A stretch of 64,000 bases of DNA from Gracilimonas mengyeensis. Its GTDB lineage: Bacteria; Bacteroidota; Rhodothermia; Balneolales; Balneolaceae. The notes under the pieces were generated by a model. That model saw only the letters and a list, made by a program, of their open reading frames with translations. It had not been told where the DNA came from and ran no database searches. Positions 3,463 through 53,226 of this stretch are shown here, piece by piece. The DNA lies in assembly GCF_900182705.1 (NCBI RefSeq), contig NZ_FXTP01000001.1:1-64000 (forward strand), in the 5' to 3' direction. The number at the start of each line of letters is the position of its first letter. Position 1 is the first letter of the stretch. The position numbers and the translations under genes were made by a program.

Positions 3463-4659
3463 ATGAATCCTAAAAAAACCGCTCTTTTCTCGTTCGGAAT
3501 TTTGGTGGCCGGTGTTTTGATATCCGTACTCATTTTTTCAACTGAACCCACCGCTCAGCAGTCGGCTGCCACTAAAGAAACCCCCATGCTGGTGGAGGTA
3601 ATGGAAGCCCAATCTGGGGATTTTGTGCCGGTTATTACGGCTACGGGAGAGGTAGTACCTGAACAGGAAATAATGCTTAGCCCGAGGGTAAGCGGGGAAG
3701 TTATGGCCCGTTCCTCCAAATTCTCCCCGGGCGGTTTTGTTGAAAAAGGGGATATGCTGATCCAAATAGACTCCACAGACTACGCTACAGCTTTGAGCCA
3801 GCGTCAAAGTGAGTTAACCGAGGCACAAGCCAATCTGGAAATGGAACAAGGTCGCCAGCAAGCAGCTTTGCGTGAGTACGAACTGTATGGCAATACTCTT
3901 TCTGAGGCAAATAAAGCCCTTGTGCTACGTCAGCCACAACTTAAAACTGCACAGTCACAGGTTGAATCAGCAAAAGCAGCGGTGCGTCGGGCTCAATTAG
4001 ATTTAGATCGTACCACGGTCCGCGCGCCTTTTGATGCACACATCCTGTCCCGTAATGTAAATGTGGGCTCTCAGGTAAGTGCCGGTGATCAATTAGGGCA
4101 GTTAGCCGGGATGGATACCTATTGGGTGGAAGCCACGGTACCTCTTTCCAAACTTAAATGGCTGACTTTCAGGGAAGATGCTAATGCTGAACAAGCTTCA
4201 GGTGTACGCATACGCAATCGAACGGCTTGGGAAGAAGGCACTCACAGAGAAGGTAATCTATACCGTATGTTGGGCTCACTGGATGATGAAACCCGAATGG
4301 CCCGGGTATTGGTTACGGTAGATGATCCACTAAGCCAGGATGATGGGAATGCCAACCAGCCCAGAATGATTATTGGATCTTTTGTTGAGGTCGAGATAGA
4401 GACGACTCCCCTGGAAAATGTAGTTCGCTTAAGCCGCGATTACCTGCGATCAGGTGAAACAGTATGGGTGATGAAAAACGAACAGCTTGAAATACGAGAG
4501 GTCGATATACGCTTTCAGGACCAAAACTATGCGTACATCACTGACGGGCTTAGTGAAGGGGAGCAGGTGGTTACTACGAGTCTGGCAAGCGTAAGCGAGG
4601 GCGCCCCTTTAAGGCTGGAAGCTTCTGCACCTAACGAGTCATCCGCCTCCACAGAGTAA
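3463..4659 (+). CDS. RND efflux periplasmic adaptor (membrane fusion protein), pump 1
   Basis: Adaptor linking an inner-membrane RND permease to an outer-membrane channel. The start at 3463 (MNPKKTALFSFGILVAG) puts an N-terminal membrane anchor first; the frame is open upstream to 3373, but that stretch is not protein-like. The layout is typical: N-terminal beta/lipoyl half (about 50-110), helical coiled-coil hairpin (about 110-190, QRQSELTEAQANLEMEQGRQQAAL), lipoyl return (TTVRAPFDAHILSRNVNVGSQV), then a beta-barrel. It sits 20 bp upstream of its permease. No channel gene is adjacent; the TolC at 24479 or the one at 56340 could serve. Substrate unknown. Confidence 0.88.
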   Translation: MNPKKTALFSFGILVAGVLISVLIFSTEPTAQQSAATKETPMLVEVMEAQSGDFVPVITATGEVVPEQEIMLSPRVSGEVMARSSKFSPGGFVEKGDMLIQIDSTDYATALSQRQSELTEAQANLEMEQGRQQAALREYELYGNTLSEANKALVLRQPQLKTAQSQVESAKAAVRRAQLDLDRTTVRAPFDAHILSRNVNVGSQVSAGDQLGQLAGMDTYWVEATVPLSKLKWLTFREDANAEQASGVRIRNRTAWEEGTHREGNLYRMLGSLDDETRMARVLVTVDDPLSQDDGNANQPRMIIGSFVEVEIETTPLENVVRLSRDYLRSGETVWVMKNEQLEIREVDIRFQDQNYAYITDGLSEGEQVVTTSLASVSEGAPLRLEASAPNESSASTE

Positions 4660-47240: not shown

Positions 47241-47567
47241 ATGGCTAAACCAATTGAATTCACAGACAGCAACTTTGATGACGAAGTATTGAAATCCGAT
47301 CAGCCGGTATTGGTTGATTTTTGGGCCGAGTGGTGTGGTCCTTGCCGTATGATCGGGCCCATCGTAGAAGAGATGGCCGGAGAGTATGAAGGAAAAGCCA
47401 AAATCGGAAAAGTGAACGTTGACAACAATCCGGAAGTATCAGTTAAATATGGTATCCGAAGCATTCCTTCGCTGCTGATCTTCAAAGACGGCGAAGTGGT
47501 GGATCAAATTGTAGGTGCTGTACCCAAATCACAGCTGACCAAACAGTTAGAAGCGCAAGTAGCGTAA
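47241..47567 (+). CDS. trxA: Thioredoxin
   Basis: 108-aa disulfide reductase. Active site Cys32-Gly-Pro-Cys35 in '[16 protein letters not shown]', cis-proline loop '[15 protein letters not shown]', standard length. Single gene with its own terminator. Confidence 0.97.
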
Positions 47568-47619: not shown

Positions 47620-48203
47620 ATGCTTCCTATTTTTTACAAGGCTTATCCTCGTCACGGTGCTGCGCAGCGTAATTTGTGATAGAGGCTCTGCCTCAAACTA
47701 AAAATCCTGTCCGCCTAGCCCCATTTCCGGGAACCATCAAGGTTGATGATGAGGCAATAAGCACATCCACGATGGCATAACTGTTTACAAAATCACCAAA
47801 GGGTTACTTTTCTGGCGCTCCGAGTCATAAGAGGCGTATAGGGAGAAATAGTGGCAAGTTTTATATATCTAAAACTTGCCAAAAACTACTTTTCCAATTT
47901 ATCTGTGCTTTTCCTATAATCCATTGTTATTCAAACAATTTAAACCAAAGTTCTTGGTCTGACGGCTTGCCCGTCTAGCCAATGGTTGAATTCGGGTAAC
48001 GTAGCTTTTAGCCATCCCTCAAACCGGCAATCGGTCAGATGGAAATCGAAATGGTTTTATACGGTTTCTCGATCTGACGGCTCTAAGTCCGTCTGATCGA
48101 TGGTTAGATTGGAGTTGGGAAACCGTGGGTACCCTGCAGATGGTTAATCTGTCAGTTGGTTTTCGGGAAAGGTAATAGTAAATAAGTAAAAAATCGGTTT
48201 TCG
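47620..48203. repeat. Gene-free stretch with decayed intergenic repeats
   Basis: No gene. 47641-47712 (CTTATCCTCGTCACGG ... GGCTCTGCCTCAAACTAAA) is a relative of 51574-51631. A perfect 11-bp hairpin GGCAAGTTTTA / TAAAACTTGCC (6-nt loop) lies at 47853-47880. Two diverged copies of a ~45-bp unit with the core TCTGACGGCT...CCGTCT and ending ATGGTT(G/A)AATT-like are at 47951-47993 and 48065-48112. Confidence 0.6.
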
Positions 48204-48426
48204 TTTATGCCACTCTTCCAAAATGTGGTACTGAATACATTTCTCTCCGGGGTGGATGAGAAAAAGGTGGAACTCGGTCTCACCGAAGAAGCCGAATGAA
48301 TGGAGTACTTCAATCAACAAAAGCCCAGAACAATGAGCTCAAATCCTGAATCGTACAAATGGATTCCGAGATTGTCTGGATGGTGTATGGGTTGAAGAGA
48401 AAGTTAGGATTGTGGAGAATGCAGGA
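48204..48426 (+). pseudogene. Decayed 3' end of a type IIG restriction-methylation gene (probable)
   Basis: Three frames together spell a C-terminus typical of type IIG/Eco57I-like enzymes: 'VDEKKVELGLTEEAE', a TGA (48297-48299) where Trp is expected, 'MEYFNQQK', a shift, 'NELKS', a second TGA (48347-48349), 'IVQMDSEIVWMVYGL', a shift, then 'EEKVRIVENA' (from 48394). In intact relatives this reads roughly EEAEW.eyF..QK...elk.eI...D.EID.mVY.LYGLt.eEi.iVE. No 5' part of the gene is present. The family match is from memory and unconfirmed. Confidence 0.55.
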
Positions 48427-48556
48427 AATTAAGAATTATGGATTGGGAATCTCTAAACCATTATAAATTTTTTTGTAAGGAATTACTCTGAACTAATGGT
48501 TAGATTAAATCTATATGTTTAATAAAATCAATTTTTAGATTAATATTTACTGAGCT

Positions 48557-49537
48557 ATGGCCAAAGAAGAAGAGCAAAAAAATGAGAGGTTATTATTATC
48601 TAAAGAGTTGATAAAGAATCTTGATCACATGCATAGCATTCGTTCTTTAGAAAAAGTATTAGCTGGTTTCAGTGAGCATTTAAAGTTAAATCAAATCGCT
48701 CTTTCTAAATCTATAATAGCTGCAACGAAAGCTTCCGAATTGGCAACTTTAAATTTAGATAGATTTATAAAAGTAAGAGAAGCCGAAGTAGAAAGAATTG
48801 TTAATGCAGTAATTCAAAATCAAAAAATTTTTACTGAAATAGGAGTCATGACTGCTGGAATGCTTTCACAAATTGCGAAGAACAATTTGGGGCTTGAGTC
48901 AAGAATTTCCTCAATTATGGACTTATCTATTCCACTGCATCAGTTTGAAAGCTCTTTCAATCAAGAATTTCTACAAAATATTCACTCGGAATTTTCAGAA
49001 GTAGAATCTGAAGCAGAGGGATTAGAATCATTAATTAGATTTTTTGAAGCTAAAATATCTTCTCTTAAAAAAGGTAGTGTATCTGCTCAAGGTTTTTGGC
49101 TAATTTTGCGACTTTATATTGCGATAATCCCAACAATTGCTCTAATAATTAGCATCAACCAAGGGAAAACAAATAAACAAGTAGCGGAAGATGTATCAGC
49201 AATAAAAGAAGATTTATCAGCCATAAAACATGCAAAAGAAATCTCAAATGAGTTTTTGGGAAATTTAAATGAATTAGGAGAAAGGGTTTTTCCATTAATT
49301 GAAGATTTGGCTATCAGTGACAAGGAAGAAGTATTGTATATTGTTAAGAAAAAAGCTCCCATTCGGGCAAAACCTAAATCAGATAGCGACACTCTCCATC
49401 GTGTTTATCCAAATCAAATTGTAAATATCATTTCCGAAGAAAAGCGATGGTTTTACGTTGAATATTTTGATCATATAGAAGCACTTCCCAAAATGGGATA
49501 CATTTACAAAGGGAATGTAACTGAGTTTAATAAGTAG
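48557..49537 (+). CDS. Membrane-anchored coiled-coil protein with C-terminal SH3-like domain
   Basis: 326 aa, AT-rich gene. N-terminal two-thirds is helical and charged (LIKNLDHMHSIRSLEKVLAGF...). One membrane segment (about 183-202, ILRLYIAIIPTIALIISI) is followed by a short coiled coil (VAEDVSAIKEDLSAIKHAKEI), and the last ~65 residues (YIVKKKAPIRAKPKSDSDTLHRVYPNQIVNIISEEKRWFYVEYF) look like a bacterial SH3 domain. No catalytic motif. It precedes the TAC cassette by 148 bp, same strand and similar base composition. Function unknown; a defence or stress role is only suggested by location. Confidence 0.7.
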   Translation: MAKEEEQKNERLLLSKELIKNLDHMHSIRSLEKVLAGFSEHLKLNQIALSKSIIAATKASELATLNLDRFIKVREAEVERIVNAVIQNQKIFTEIGVMTAGMLSQIAKNNLGLESRISSIMDLSIPLHQFESSFNQEFLQNIHSEFSEVESEAEGLESLIRFFEAKISSLKKGSVSAQGFWLILRLYIAIIPTIALIISINQGKTNKQVAEDVSAIKEDLSAIKHAKEISNEFLGNLNELGERVFPLIEDLAISDKEEVLYIVKKKAPIRAKPKSDSDTLHRVYPNQIVNIISEEKRWFYVEYFDHIEALPKMGYIYKGNVTEFNK

Positions 49538-49685
49538 GAGTGTTTAAATTCGTTTCTAACCCCGTTGTAATTTTAATTAGAGAAAAAAAGTATCGAGAAA
49601 CCAACATTAGAGCATAAAATGACTCAACGTACAACATTAATGATAGAAGCAAGGAACTTTCTAATCAACTCACAGGTTGATTGAT
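49538..49685 (+). other. Leader of the TAC cassette with a 21-codon frame
   Basis: AT-rich leader. A short ATG frame at 49619-49684 (MTQRTTLMIEARNFLINSQVD) ends one base before the candidate toxin start (TGATATG). It may be a coupling leader peptide or chance. Confidence 0.3.
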
Positions 49686-50261
49686 ATGGAGATTGTACGT
49701 ATAATAGACGCTCCAGAACCAGTATTGTATGCTGTACAGTACACTGGAGAGGAAATTCATGAACTATATAGAAATATAGATTTATGGATTGATCCAGAGT
49801 ATCTAAGAGAATTTTTTAAAACTCATGAAAAAGATTTAAAGTCCTATTGTGAGTTCCACGAAGTTTTTTATAGCATCAATGATGCCGTAAGAAAAACTAT
49901 AAATGACATTGAAAACTTAGAACAAGTTTTAATAGAAAAAGCTGAAAACGGGATAAGTGATGAAGAGGAAATCCTTGAAACTCTTTTTAAACCACTACAC
50001 AACAAAGAAAAAGACCAGCGTTATGCTTTACAAGAAAGTAAAGCTACTTTAGATGAAGAAACCTGGCTTAGATTATATGCTATTCGAATTGATAAACATT
50101 TGTATGTGATAACCGGAGGAGCAATTAAGCTCACAGAAACCATGAACGAAAGAGATCATACTAAAACTGAACTCAAAAAAATGGATCAGGTTGTTCAATA
50201 CCTAAGAAATGAAGATTTGATCAATGAAGAAGAATTTGAAAAGTTTGAATTAGGGATTTGA
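49686..50261 (+). CDS. Candidate toxin of a toxin-antitoxin-chaperone cassette
   Basis: 191-aa acidic, soluble protein. ATG at 49686 (MEIVRIIDAPEPVLYAVQY); a TTG three codons upstream is also open. The N-terminal part is 'GEEIHELYRNIDLWIDPEYLREFFKTHEKDL', the middle a charged helical stretch, and the C-terminal third 'TWLRLYAIRIDKHLYVITGGAIKLTETM' has a strand-turn-strand pattern that faintly recalls RelE/HigB-type toxins, but I cannot assign it to a family. The toxin call rests mainly on position: first gene of a three-gene unit with an HTH antitoxin 3 bp downstream and a SecB-like gene third. Twice the length of classic HigB. Confidence 0.6.
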   Translation: MEIVRIIDAPEPVLYAVQYTGEEIHELYRNIDLWIDPEYLREFFKTHEKDLKSYCEFHEVFYSINDAVRKTINDIENLEQVLIEKAENGISDEEEILETLFKPLHNKEKDQRYALQESKATLDEETWLRLYAIRIDKHLYVITGGAIKLTETMNERDHTKTELKKMDQVVQYLRNEDLINEEEFEKFELGI

Positions 50262-50264
50262 GAT

Positions 50265-50708
50265 ATGACAGATATTAGAAAAAAAATAGAAGAAATCGCC
50301 ATTGATGATACCAGTGGCTGGAAAGAAGATGCAAAATATCGTCGTGCCAATAGAAAATGGTTACGAAAATCTCAGGATATCGCCCTCCGCATTTTAGATG
50401 TTCTTGAAGAGAAAGGGATGCAGCAAAAAGATTTGGCGGAAGCTCTAGATGTTTCTCCCCAGCAAATCAGTAAGATTGTAAAAGGGAAACAAAATCTGAC
50501 GCTTGAAACAATTTCCAAATTGGAGCAGGTGCTTGGCGTTGAATTGGTAGGTGTACCTAAATATCAAACCAAGATGGATGTGGATAAAAAAGAGGTCAAA
50601 ACAAGTTTTGGAAAGCAGAAGAGACAAAGAGTTGCTGTTCAGGTAGATTTTGGAGATGTTTTTAAGCAACCATCAGATTCGGACTATAATTATAGAAATG
50701 CGGCATGA
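50265..50708 (+). CDS. XRE/HigA-type antitoxin with C-terminal extension
   Basis: 147 aa. A Cro/C1-type helix-turn-helix spans about 42-93 (ALRILDVLEEKGMQQKDLAEALDVSPQQISKIVKG), as in HigA antitoxins. The ~50 residues after it (YQTKMDVDKKEVKTSFGKQKRQRVAVQ ... NYRNAA) are polar and probably flexible, the place where TAC antitoxins carry the chaperone-addiction segment that makes folding depend on the SecB-like partner (known for the M. tuberculosis HigBA-Rv1957 system; inferred here). It overlaps the chaperone gene by ATGA. Confidence 0.82.
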   Translation: MTDIRKKIEEIAIDDTSGWKEDAKYRRANRKWLRKSQDIALRILDVLEEKGMQQKDLAEALDVSPQQISKIVKGKQNLTLETISKLEQVLGVELVGVPKYQTKMDVDKKEVKTSFGKQKRQRVAVQVDFGDVFKQPSDSDYNYRNAA

Positions 50709-51151
50709 GCAAAGAATTAGCACTTAGTTTTCGCTTGGTTGACATTAAAACTGATGAGTTTGCCATAATAGAGGATAGCTTTGAAGAGGGAGGGAATGTA
50801 AGATTGGGAACCTTCTTTGACTTTGGGTTAGATAAAGAAAAACACATTTTAGGCACCAATGTTAAATTTCTGTTTGAGCAGGATGAAAAACCTTTTTTAA
50901 TCATTTCTGTAACCTGTGGCTTTGAAATGGAAGAAGAAGCTTGGGAATCATTGATTGACGCAGACAAGAATAAAATAATAATACCGGAAGGTTTTGCTTC
51001 TCATATGGCTGTATTAACCGTGGGCACTGCCAGAGGGGTACTTCATGAAAAGACAAACGAAACAGATTTTAACGATTTCATTATTCCTCCCATCAACCTT
51101 ACTAAAATCATTAACGAGGATATCGAAATTGATTTGAATGTTGATGAATAA
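50705..51151 (+). CDS. SecB-like chaperone of a TAC cassette
   Basis: 148 aa. The middle and C-terminal part follow the SecB pattern: a beta-sheet core (PFLIISVTCGFEMEEEAW) and then 'IIIPEGFASHMAVLTVGTARGVLHEK', whose 'H/R...T...ARG.L' resembles the SecB helix 'ARECITSMVSRGTFP', ending 'FIIPPINLTKII', comparable to SecB 'LNLAPVNFDALF'. Start overlaps the antitoxin stop (ATGA). In known TAC systems such a SecB-like protein binds the antitoxin tail and allows it to neutralise the toxin. A general SecB role cannot be excluded, but it is acidic and sits with TA genes. Confidence 0.8.
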   Translation: MSKELALSFRLVDIKTDEFAIIEDSFEEGGNVRLGTFFDFGLDKEKHILGTNVKFLFEQDEKPFLIISVTCGFEMEEEAWESLIDADKNKIIIPEGFASHMAVLTVGTARGVLHEKTNETDFNDFIIPPINLTKIINEDIEIDLNVDE

Positions 51152-52146
51152 GTGTAGTGGTTAACTTCCAACCTCTTTCCCAACGCCCCAGTTGGGAATA
51201 CCCCGCCGGACCACACGATCCGAGTGAGCAGTATGACCTCGTTGCGAAGCTCCATCTTCCCGTAGCTGTAATGAGCCTGTCATCCCGGATACCGAATCAC
51301 TGGAAGCCGGAGCTTCTGGAAGAAGGGGGTTACGCAGCCGGAGCTACGTAACCAGGATGGAGGACAAGCGGCGCTACGTACATCTCTCAGGTACCACATG
51401 GTTATGTCTTTTAGTATTTCCTGAAATTCTTTTCTTTTTTTGTAAGGAATGACTCTCAACTCCCTCTTACTAATACATACTTGAACCAACAGCCCCGGAG
51501 AATTACGCAGCTTTTCGTGGTCGGGCTTAATAATGCTTAATCCATTTTATTTAGGAGGTACTTTATGGACCCTTGTCCTCGTCACGGAGCTCTGCTCCGT
51601 GATGCCCCATGAAGGCTCCGCCTCAAACTAAATTCATAACGCCCAATTAGCCCAACCTCCGGCAACCGGCAAAGCCACTGGCGCCCACCGGGCGGAGGTT
51701 TGCGGGCGGGTTGGTTTGTAAACCCCGGGCTGCGTCCGGCCCGGCATCCCAAACCAAATTTAACTTCGCAACGGACTTACCCGGGGCTACTCATATGTGA
51801 CCCCTATCGGGGTCGGCCATAAATCAAGATGATCTCTGAATCTTGTAAATCATGATTCAAGCCTAATGATAGCATTAACCGCGATCATCCGCCTGATCCG
51901 CCTCATCCGTGTTCCATTCCTTCTGTGTTTGAACCTCGTTCCCAACGCCCCGCTCGGAATGCCCCGCAGGCTCCCCGGTCCGAGTGAGCAGCAAAGGGGT
52001 TTATACTCAGGGTACACACTCATACATGTAGTTCTTTTGTATGCATTACTCATGCATTATTTTTTACAAGGCTTTTCAAGAAAATCGAATGCTTAATGCA
52101 GGCTAAAGGTTAACTTTAACATCAAAATTCTGCTAAATAAATTTAT
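51152..52146. repeat. Gene-free stretch with several intergenic repeats
   Basis: About 1 kb without a credible gene. Two copies of a GC-rich unit: 51169-51230 (CCTCTTTCCCAACGCCCC ... CCGAGTGAGCAG) and 51931-51990 (CCTCGTTCCCAACGCCCC ... CCGAGTGAGCAG). 51574-51631 (CTTGTCCTCGTCACGGAGC, hairpin with GCTCCGTG, then GGCTCCGCCTCAAACTAAA) is a relative of 47641-47699. 51430-51460 (TTTTTTTGTAAGGAAT...) recurs near 48470-48495. 51875-51915 has a CCGC-ATCATCCGCCTGATCCGCC-type repeat. These look like decayed dispersed elements. Confidence 0.65.
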
Positions 52147-53226
52147 ATGAAACGCATACTCATCACCATCGGGGTATTGGTCGTATTAGGATTATTGGCC
52201 ATACCCAAAGTAAAAAGCCTAACGCAAGCCTCTGATGCCGGACAGTCTTCCAATGCCTCAAATGAACCGTTATTGGTTGATGTCCATTTGGTGGAAGCGC
52301 AGGTATTTGAGAATAAGATATTTACCACAGGCACCTTGCTTGCCAACGAAAGCGTGGACTTGCGCAGCGAGACCTCGGGAAAAATAACAGAGCTCCAGCT
52401 GGAAGAAGGGCAGCAGGTTAAAGCCGGTGAATTGCTGTTGAAAATTAATGACAGTGAACTACAGGCCCAGTTGAAACAGGCAGAATATCGACTGAGTTTA
52501 GCAGAACAACGGGAAACCCGCCAAAAGCAACTGCTGGATCGTGGGGGGATTAGCCAGGACCAATACGATGCCACACTGAACGAACTGAATGTGTTGCAAT
52601 CGGAAGTAGATTTGATCAAAGCTCAAATAGATAAAACCCAGATCAATGCTCCGTTTGATGGCGTTGTTGGTTTGCGTTATGTGAGTAATGGCAGTTATAT
52701 CTCACCAACAACCGAAATTGCGAATTTACAATCCATCAACCCCATTAAAATTGAGTTTTCAATTCCCGAGCGCTATGCCGGTGTGGTTGAAGAAGGCGAC
52801 CGGGTGATTTTTTCGGTACAGGGACAGGATCAGGACTTTGAAGCTTCTATCTATGCCATCGAGCCCCGTATCGATCCCCAAACCCGAACCCTGCGTATGC
52901 GTGCCCGTGCTGCCAACAACGACGGATTATTACTGCCGGGAGCTTTCGCCAATATGGAGCTCATTCTGGAAGAAATTGAAGATGCCTTGCTGATTCCATC
53001 TATTAGTGTGATTCCCGAATTGGATGGACAAAAGGTATTTGTATTAAGAGACGGCGTGGTACAGGAACAGCAAGTTTCTACAGGTATCCGTACGGAATCA
53101 TCCGTACAAATTACCAGCGGACTTGCTCCCGGCGACTCCGTTTTGACCACCGGCCTTTTGCAAGTTCGTAGCGGTCAGCCGGTACGGGTAGATGAAGTGG
53201 ACAGATTCGAGGAGTTAGACCTATGA
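52147..53226 (+). CDS. RND efflux periplasmic adaptor, pump 2
   Basis: 359-aa membrane fusion protein. N-terminal anchor (ILITIGVLVVLGLLAIP), lipoyl and hairpin region (LRSETSGKITELQLEEGQQVKAGELLLKINDSELQAQLKQAEYRLSLAEQRE...), return 'TQINAPFDGVVGLRYVSNGSYISP', beta-barrel and a C-terminal membrane-proximal domain. Its stop overlaps the permease start by ATGA (53223), so the two are coupled. First gene of a complete adaptor-permease-channel operon. Confidence 0.92.
   Translation: MKRILITIGVLVVLGLLAIPKVKSLTQASDAGQSSNASNEPLLVDVHLVEAQVFENKIFTTGTLLANESVDLRSETSGKITELQLEEGQQVKAGELLLKINDSELQAQLKQAEYRLSLAEQRETRQKQLLDRGGISQDQYDATLNELNVLQSEVDLIKAQIDKTQINAPFDGVVGLRYVSNGSYISPTTEIANLQSINPIKIEFSIPERYAGVVEEGDRVIFSVQGQDQDFEASIYAIEPRIDPQTRTLRMRARAANNDGLLLPGAFANMELILEEIEDALLIPSISVIPELDGQKVFVLRDGVVQEQQVSTGIRTESSVQITSGLAPGDSVLTTGLLQVRSGQPVRVDEVDRFEELDL

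Follow-up and report, generated by a model that had tools for sequence, protein, structure and literature searches.

The window, by which we mean the whole 64,000-nucleotide stretch of Gracilimonas mengyeensis contig NZ_FXTP01000001.1 that was analysed, carries a 4.4-kb insert between trxA and an RND membrane-fusion gene, and on this insert, on the plus strand at positions 48187-48432, lies the relic of a type IIG restriction-methylation gene. The insert is bounded by two copies of a 15-bp direct repeat, TTTTTTACAAGGCTT, which has only these two exact copies in the 4.67-Mb assembly (at 47630 and 52060), and no integrase was noticed among the open reading frames (ORFs) between them. Near both ends of the insert, at 47649-47703 and 51578-51632, similar repeat-rich stretches (TCCTCGTCACGG...GGCTCNGCCTCAAACTAAA) were recognized by eye. 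The coordinates of all features are collected in Table 1.

Table 1. Features of the trxA-RND pump site in the window, and loose tails located in three other loci
Feature	Position	Strand	Remark
trxA	47241-47567		left neighbour of the insert
Left 15-bp direct repeat, TTTTTTACAAGGCTT	47630-47644		bounds the insert
Promoter-like leader of the lost gene (CTTTTCCTATAATCC...)	47906-47995	+	matches the leaders of the intact G005 and G006 genes
Head	48187-48272	+	22 codons from the start codon (48207) onward, plus 5' flank; 48187-48271 aligns to the start of the G006 gene
Putative deletion junction (shared by the head and tail matches)	48259-48271	+	contains AAAAGGTGGA
Tail	48259-48432	+	roughly the final 60 codons; two TGA codons, two frame shifts
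Neighbouring ORF, 326 aa, SH3_3 domain	48557-49537	+	same insert as the relic
Three-gene cassette (194 aa, 147-aa HTH, 148 aa)	49677-51151	+	PDC-M64 candidate defence family
Right 15-bp direct repeat, TTTTTTACAAGGCTT	52060-52074		bounds the insert
RND membrane-fusion gene	52147-53226		right neighbour of the insert
Loose tail, L110	2032-2133		79% identical (DNA, 92 bp) to the tail of the type IIG gene itself
Loose tail, L111	2188-2245		95% identical (DNA, 58 bp) to the tail of the type IIG gene itself
Loose tail, L112	5711-5835		81% identical (DNA, 121 bp) to the tail of the type IIG gene itself

Downstream of the relic, the SH3 ORF is followed by a three-gene cassette whose products match the PADLOC family PDC-M64 (best E values of 1e-5, 7e-22, and 2e-8). 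The 147-aa protein has a strong HTH match, while the third protein gave no Pfam match up to an E value of 1, nothing telling in the PDB, and a weak BLASTP alignment to a SecB-family protein of another type IIG locus (two-sequence E of 6e-5). These resemblances suggest that the cassette may be a candidate toxin-antitoxin-chaperone-like system. The SH3 ORF and the cassette are framed by the only two copies in this genome of TTTTTTGTAAGGAAT followed by N-ACTCT (48469-48489 and 51436-51456), and similar words occur in L009 (at 548 and 9045).

We sought trxA and the pump gene in 10 genomes of the genus, our own included. All 10 contain trxA and 9, again counting our own, have the pump gene beside it; no pump gene match was found in the ninth relative, G006. 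The spacer between the two genes, 4.58 kb in the window, measures only 162 to 311 bp in seven of the eight relatives with both genes, and the relatives' spacers contain TTTTTTACAAGGCTT or a close sequence once each. In the remaining relative, G003, the spacer is 2,752 bp long and contains a single long frame on the minus strand, which looks by eye like the gene of a secreted propeller protein and ends in a putative type IX secretion tail; no defence gene is recognizable there. None of the relatives compared showed the insert at this position. Defence-type genes have, with the relic and the candidate cassette, accumulated at least once on the insert of the window. The proposal of an earlier note, that the site is a hot spot of defence turnover, finds no support in the relatives, since seven of the eight scorable sites are empty, G003 has no recognizable defence gene, and different defence systems were not found at this position.

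The same note had listed six peptides as traces of a type IIG C-terminus, and all six are present, in three frames and in the order claimed, as are the two TGA codons and the two frame shifts, which were borne out by three-frame translation. TEEAE and MEYFNQQK lie in the frame starting at 48102; NELKS, IVQMDSEI, and VYGL lie in the frame starting at 48101, where a TGA (48347-48349) separates NELKS from IVQMDSEI; and EEKVRIVE is read in the third frame (48100) at 48394-48417, with the next in-frame TAA at 48430. Two changes of frame are therefore required to read the whole relic. The frame that opens with the ATG at 48207 (MPLFQNVVLNTFLSGVDEKKVE) reads MPLFQNVVLNTFLSGVDEKKVELGLTEEAE up to the other TGA (48297-48299) and continues with MEYFNQQK.

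We then searched 57 genomes, our own included, at the DNA level with positions 48190-48450. In G006, a member of the same genus, two collinear matches were found on the same strand 2.9 kb apart, one to positions 48198-48271 (74 bp, 86% identity, E = 8.8e-19) and one to 48259-48394 (80% identity, E = 2.7e-27), and G005, G002, and G025 likewise gave two collinear matches, one per gene end. The G006 matches flank a single open gene of 1056 codons (L009:5097-8267, minus strand), which starts with MPLFQNAVLNKYLSGVDEQKVEEAW, ends with KKKKVELTLDKEAEWMEYFNQQKAKANELKNQIAQTDSEIDGMVYELYGLTKEEIEVVEGS, is assigned by PADLOC to REase_MTase_IIG (PDLC03609, E = 0, residues 1 to 1054), and contains the Pfam domains Eco57I (2e-49) and TaqI_C (2e-13). 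As the two matches are the two ends of one gene, what survives in the window is a type IIG gene reduced to its beginning and its end, without the body, and the ATG at 48207, which falls inside the homology to G006, is the gene's own start codon. The identification of a type IIG relic is thereby confirmed, whereas its description as a C-terminus holds for the tail only: positions 48207-48272 are the gene start, and some 2.9 to 3 kb of body is absent between the two.

Chance peptides in non-coding DNA might have been suspected, given that the fragments are short and spread over three frames, but DNA-level E values of ~1e-18 and ~1e-27, the correct order and strand, the presence of both gene ends, and the agreement of several relatives refute this explanation, to which we attach practically no probability. 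Through its collinear homology to both ends, the window copy can be classed as a pseudogene of the PDLC03609 subfamily. It shares with the intact G006 gene the leader motif as well as the first 22 and the last codons, at 80 to 86% DNA identity, but lacks the nuclease, the Eco57I methyltransferase, and the TaqI_C specificity (recognition) domain, and its reading frame is broken by the two stops and two frame shifts. Composed of a leader, 22 head codons (residues 1 to 22 in local alignment), and about 60 tail codons joined directly to them, the window copy makes no enzyme and, taken by itself, is an ordinary pseudogene. Elsewhere in the same genome, the only PDLC03609 match at E ≤ 1e-10 is a distant one on contig 7, a 1229-codon frame (L086, E = 1e-15); this Eco57I-type methylase relative has the same kind of LYGLSEEEIGIVEG tail as the relic but belongs to another subfamily and is not the parent of the relic.

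Homology to intact genes also extends upstream of the start codon. Positions 47906-47995 match the leaders of two intact genes, in G005 over 93 bp (78.5%, E = 5e-17) and in G006 over 36 bp (E = 6e-4). CTATAATCC, found here at 47914, recurs in three (L009, L011, and L053) of the nine genes whose upstream 130 bp were compared, and CTATAATCT in two of them (L049 and L052). The leader is separated from the start codon by a stretch rich in dispersed repeats, with 47950-48180 matching seven places in the genome, itself included, and a similar repeat-rich stretch is present in G026.

At the point where head and tail meet, the two homologies overlap by 13 bp, the head ending at 48271 and the tail beginning at 48259. 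The intact G006 gene carries AAAAGGTGGA as a perfect 10-bp direct repeat, at nucleotide 56 and 179 nucleotides before its end, and a deletion between these two copies in a G006-like gene would yield the arrangement of the window. The statistical support that this comparison lends to a repeat-mediated junction is modest: the G006 gene contains 13 direct repeats of at least 10 bp, among them AAAAGGTGGA, and 3% of random pairs of windows within that gene share a word as long. We also considered terminal direct repeats as a general cause of collapse and rejected it, retaining it through G006 for the window copy only. Six other intact genes had no direct repeat of 10 bp or more at their two ends, and head-tail similarity did not rise significantly above background in any of the seven intact genes (P = 0.08 for G006 and 0.38 to 0.86 for the rest), leaving no signal in six of the seven.

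We therefore favour the following history, with a probability of about 90%: the relic derives from a complete type IIG gene that collapsed through an internal deletion of about 3 kb and then decayed, on what is now the 4.4-kb insert. A complete Eco57I-like gene, with endonuclease, methyltransferase, and specificity parts fused, would once have stood here or on the inserted DNA, read to the right from its own promoter. Deletion between direct repeats of about 10 bp (AAAAGGTGGA) near both gene ends would have taken out the portions for cleavage, methylation, and target recognition, after which what was left would have decayed neutrally. The data are compatible with a deletion in place as well as with one that preceded arrival.

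The G026 match turned out to be collapsed as well, with MPLFQNAVLNTYLSGIDE joined to AEWLDYFTQQKAQADELK... in an open frame. This natural 71-residue frame served as the query for further copies and, being itself a head-tail form, favours the finding of such forms. It matched in 33 of 128 genomes of the order (E ≤ 0.01), 32 of 244 genomes of the class (E ≤ 0.001), and 26 of 394 genomes of the phylum (E ≤ 1e-6), many of these matches being the tails of long type IIG genes that are distant or have unrelated bodies. Loci of the subfamily in the order were scored by a family profile and by inspection, and 18 were scorable in the 128 genomes. Five contig-end fragments (G115:C129, G099:C41, G087, G088, and G093), a tail piece in G077 (L036) that better matches a second subfamily, and long-frame distant type IIG genes with weakly matching tails were left out, and little weight was given to the tails of G091:C79 (L109), which lie on a short contig with GC-rich codons and are perhaps foreign to that genome.

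Nine of the 18 loci have an uninterrupted frame (G005, G002, G006, G080 twice, G098:C125, G025:C21, G115:C90, and G018), two are full length yet frame-shifted (G101 and G059), one retains a head of at least 216 residues with no tail (G100), and one is a tail only, by a weak match (G025:C15, E = 1.9e-4). The remaining five are head-tail collapses: the window copy (G000) and those of G026 (L012), G027 (L014), G098 contig 61 (L045), and G106 (L046). By local alignment, from which three extensions of the head to residues 39, 45, and 58 were set aside as chance, the five retain 18 to 24 head residues and tails that start 47 to 78 residues before the gene end, the window tail starting about 60 residues before it by DNA match. 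We observed no copy in the order whose head and tail are separated by an intermediate distance.

The four other copies resemble the relic in having some 20 head codons joined to the tail but differ from it in the sequence of the junction. The G027 copy has stops, as does that of the window, whereas those of G026 and G098 are open, the former (P0001, 71 aa) within a 201-codon frame and the latter as a short ORF with its own start and stop in a 74-codon frame. The G098 copy has a weak head (score 36 to 42) without a DNA match. In the G106 copy the far end of the tail is lost, and this copy is less certain because its genome is 89% complete with 7% contamination. Separate events are indicated by the diversity of junctions and by the lack of any clear sign that the collapsed copies resemble each other more than they resemble full-length genes. 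A single ancestral collapse passed around was rejected on these grounds, the G026 and G106 tails being 89% identical to each other over 64 bp and 88 to 89% identical to that of L049. We likewise rejected a mobile non-autonomous element, as the search of the order gave one collapsed copy per genome, the surroundings differ by eye, and parts of the leader also occur in intact genes.

The open frames of G026 and G098 would fit a small functional gene of about 70 aa, kept for a role of its own, of which the window copy is a broken member. Stops in the window and G027 copies and the lost tail end of G106 speak against it; a weak sign in the same direction is that the changed tail codons alter the amino acid in 10 of 15 cases in G026 and 13 of 17 in G098, relative to the nearest copy, a share as high being attained in 5 of 36 pairwise comparisons between full-length genes. 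We regard such a gene as highly improbable.

That four other genomes show the same collapse at other junctions suggests that a single fortunate repeat is not the whole cause. Collapse might be recurrent and non-random, the ends of type IIG genes serving as preferred points of break or exchange and the window copy being one such scar; recombination between related loci would then swap gene bodies and downstream defence cargo, leaving remnants and loose tails. We hold this to be possible but on balance doubtful. It draws on the five head-tail forms among 18 loci, with short heads, differing junctions, and no intermediates seen; on the DNA of the 48-codon tail, which is 76 to 93% identical among nine full-length genes of differing lengths; and on loose tails just after the cargo downstream of type IIG genes of the second subfamily. 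It is weakened by the bias of the query towards head-tail forms, by the weakness of the G098 head, and by the finding of no recombinase or shared att site. The head point, moreover, is not universal: besides the long head of G100, the last 55 residues directly adjoin a head of 138 in a Flavobacteriaceae record (L064), and in G073, of the second subfamily, a head of about 55 to 60 residues precedes some 26 tail residues that match weakly (E = 0.36 for the tail alone). In the phylum search, none of 17 loci outside the family had a head within 1.5 kb upstream, where distant heads are hard to detect, and the short-frame tail matches of G477, G360, G441, G337, and G406 were left unassigned. Short-head collapse thus appears, from these comparisons, to be frequent in the PDLC03609 subfamily of the window's family, but it is not a law.

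The second subfamily was sought with a joined control query, which matched in 38 of the 128 genomes. At about 4317-4541, L107 contains an open mini-gene that resembles the head and tail of this subfamily, its tail match alone being weak. In L110, L111, and L112, cargo lies behind a type IIG gene, which is a single frame in the first two and two frames in the third, and beyond the cargo comes another tail, shorter than the first and with the same orientation. The cargo consists of a 1020-aa protein with an Avs2-like stretch and an HSDR_N domain in L110, a PDC-M34B-like protein in L111, and a Gp49-like toxin, an HTH protein, and a SecB-family protein in L112. One reading of this order is that cargo may arrive with a new tail, the old one being left behind. 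Taken further, the ends of type IIG genes would be anchor points for the repeated exchange of bodies and downstream defence cargo, and the five collapses, the Flavobacteriaceae case, perhaps one case in the second subfamily, and the loose tails would be footprints of exchange; we consider this rather unlikely.

It is the recurrence, and not the single window copy, that is of interest. A literature search returned no report of such type IIG remnants, which is no proof of absence, and the passages checked in PMC12707154 hold nothing on them. If restriction genes of this group do collapse repeatedly to the same ends, and if loose tails mark the places where cargo was exchanged, head and tail scars could reveal the former defence genes of a lineage and the routes of their exchange; should the gene ends act as anchor points for exchange, collapses and loose tails would form a fossil record of defence turnover. 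The recurrence and the loose tails both deserve systematic study.

In G006, the intact type IIG gene is directly followed by a gene for a PDC-M34B-like protein of 357 aa (L009, 4024-5097, minus strand), which overlaps its end and shows HEPN_Swt1 below the Pfam cut-off. A similar protein, by eye, comes after the intact gene of G002, and such proteins come after type IIG genes in L013 and L111, an arrangement which suggests that the type IIG gene and the PDC-M34B-like gene form a two-gene system.
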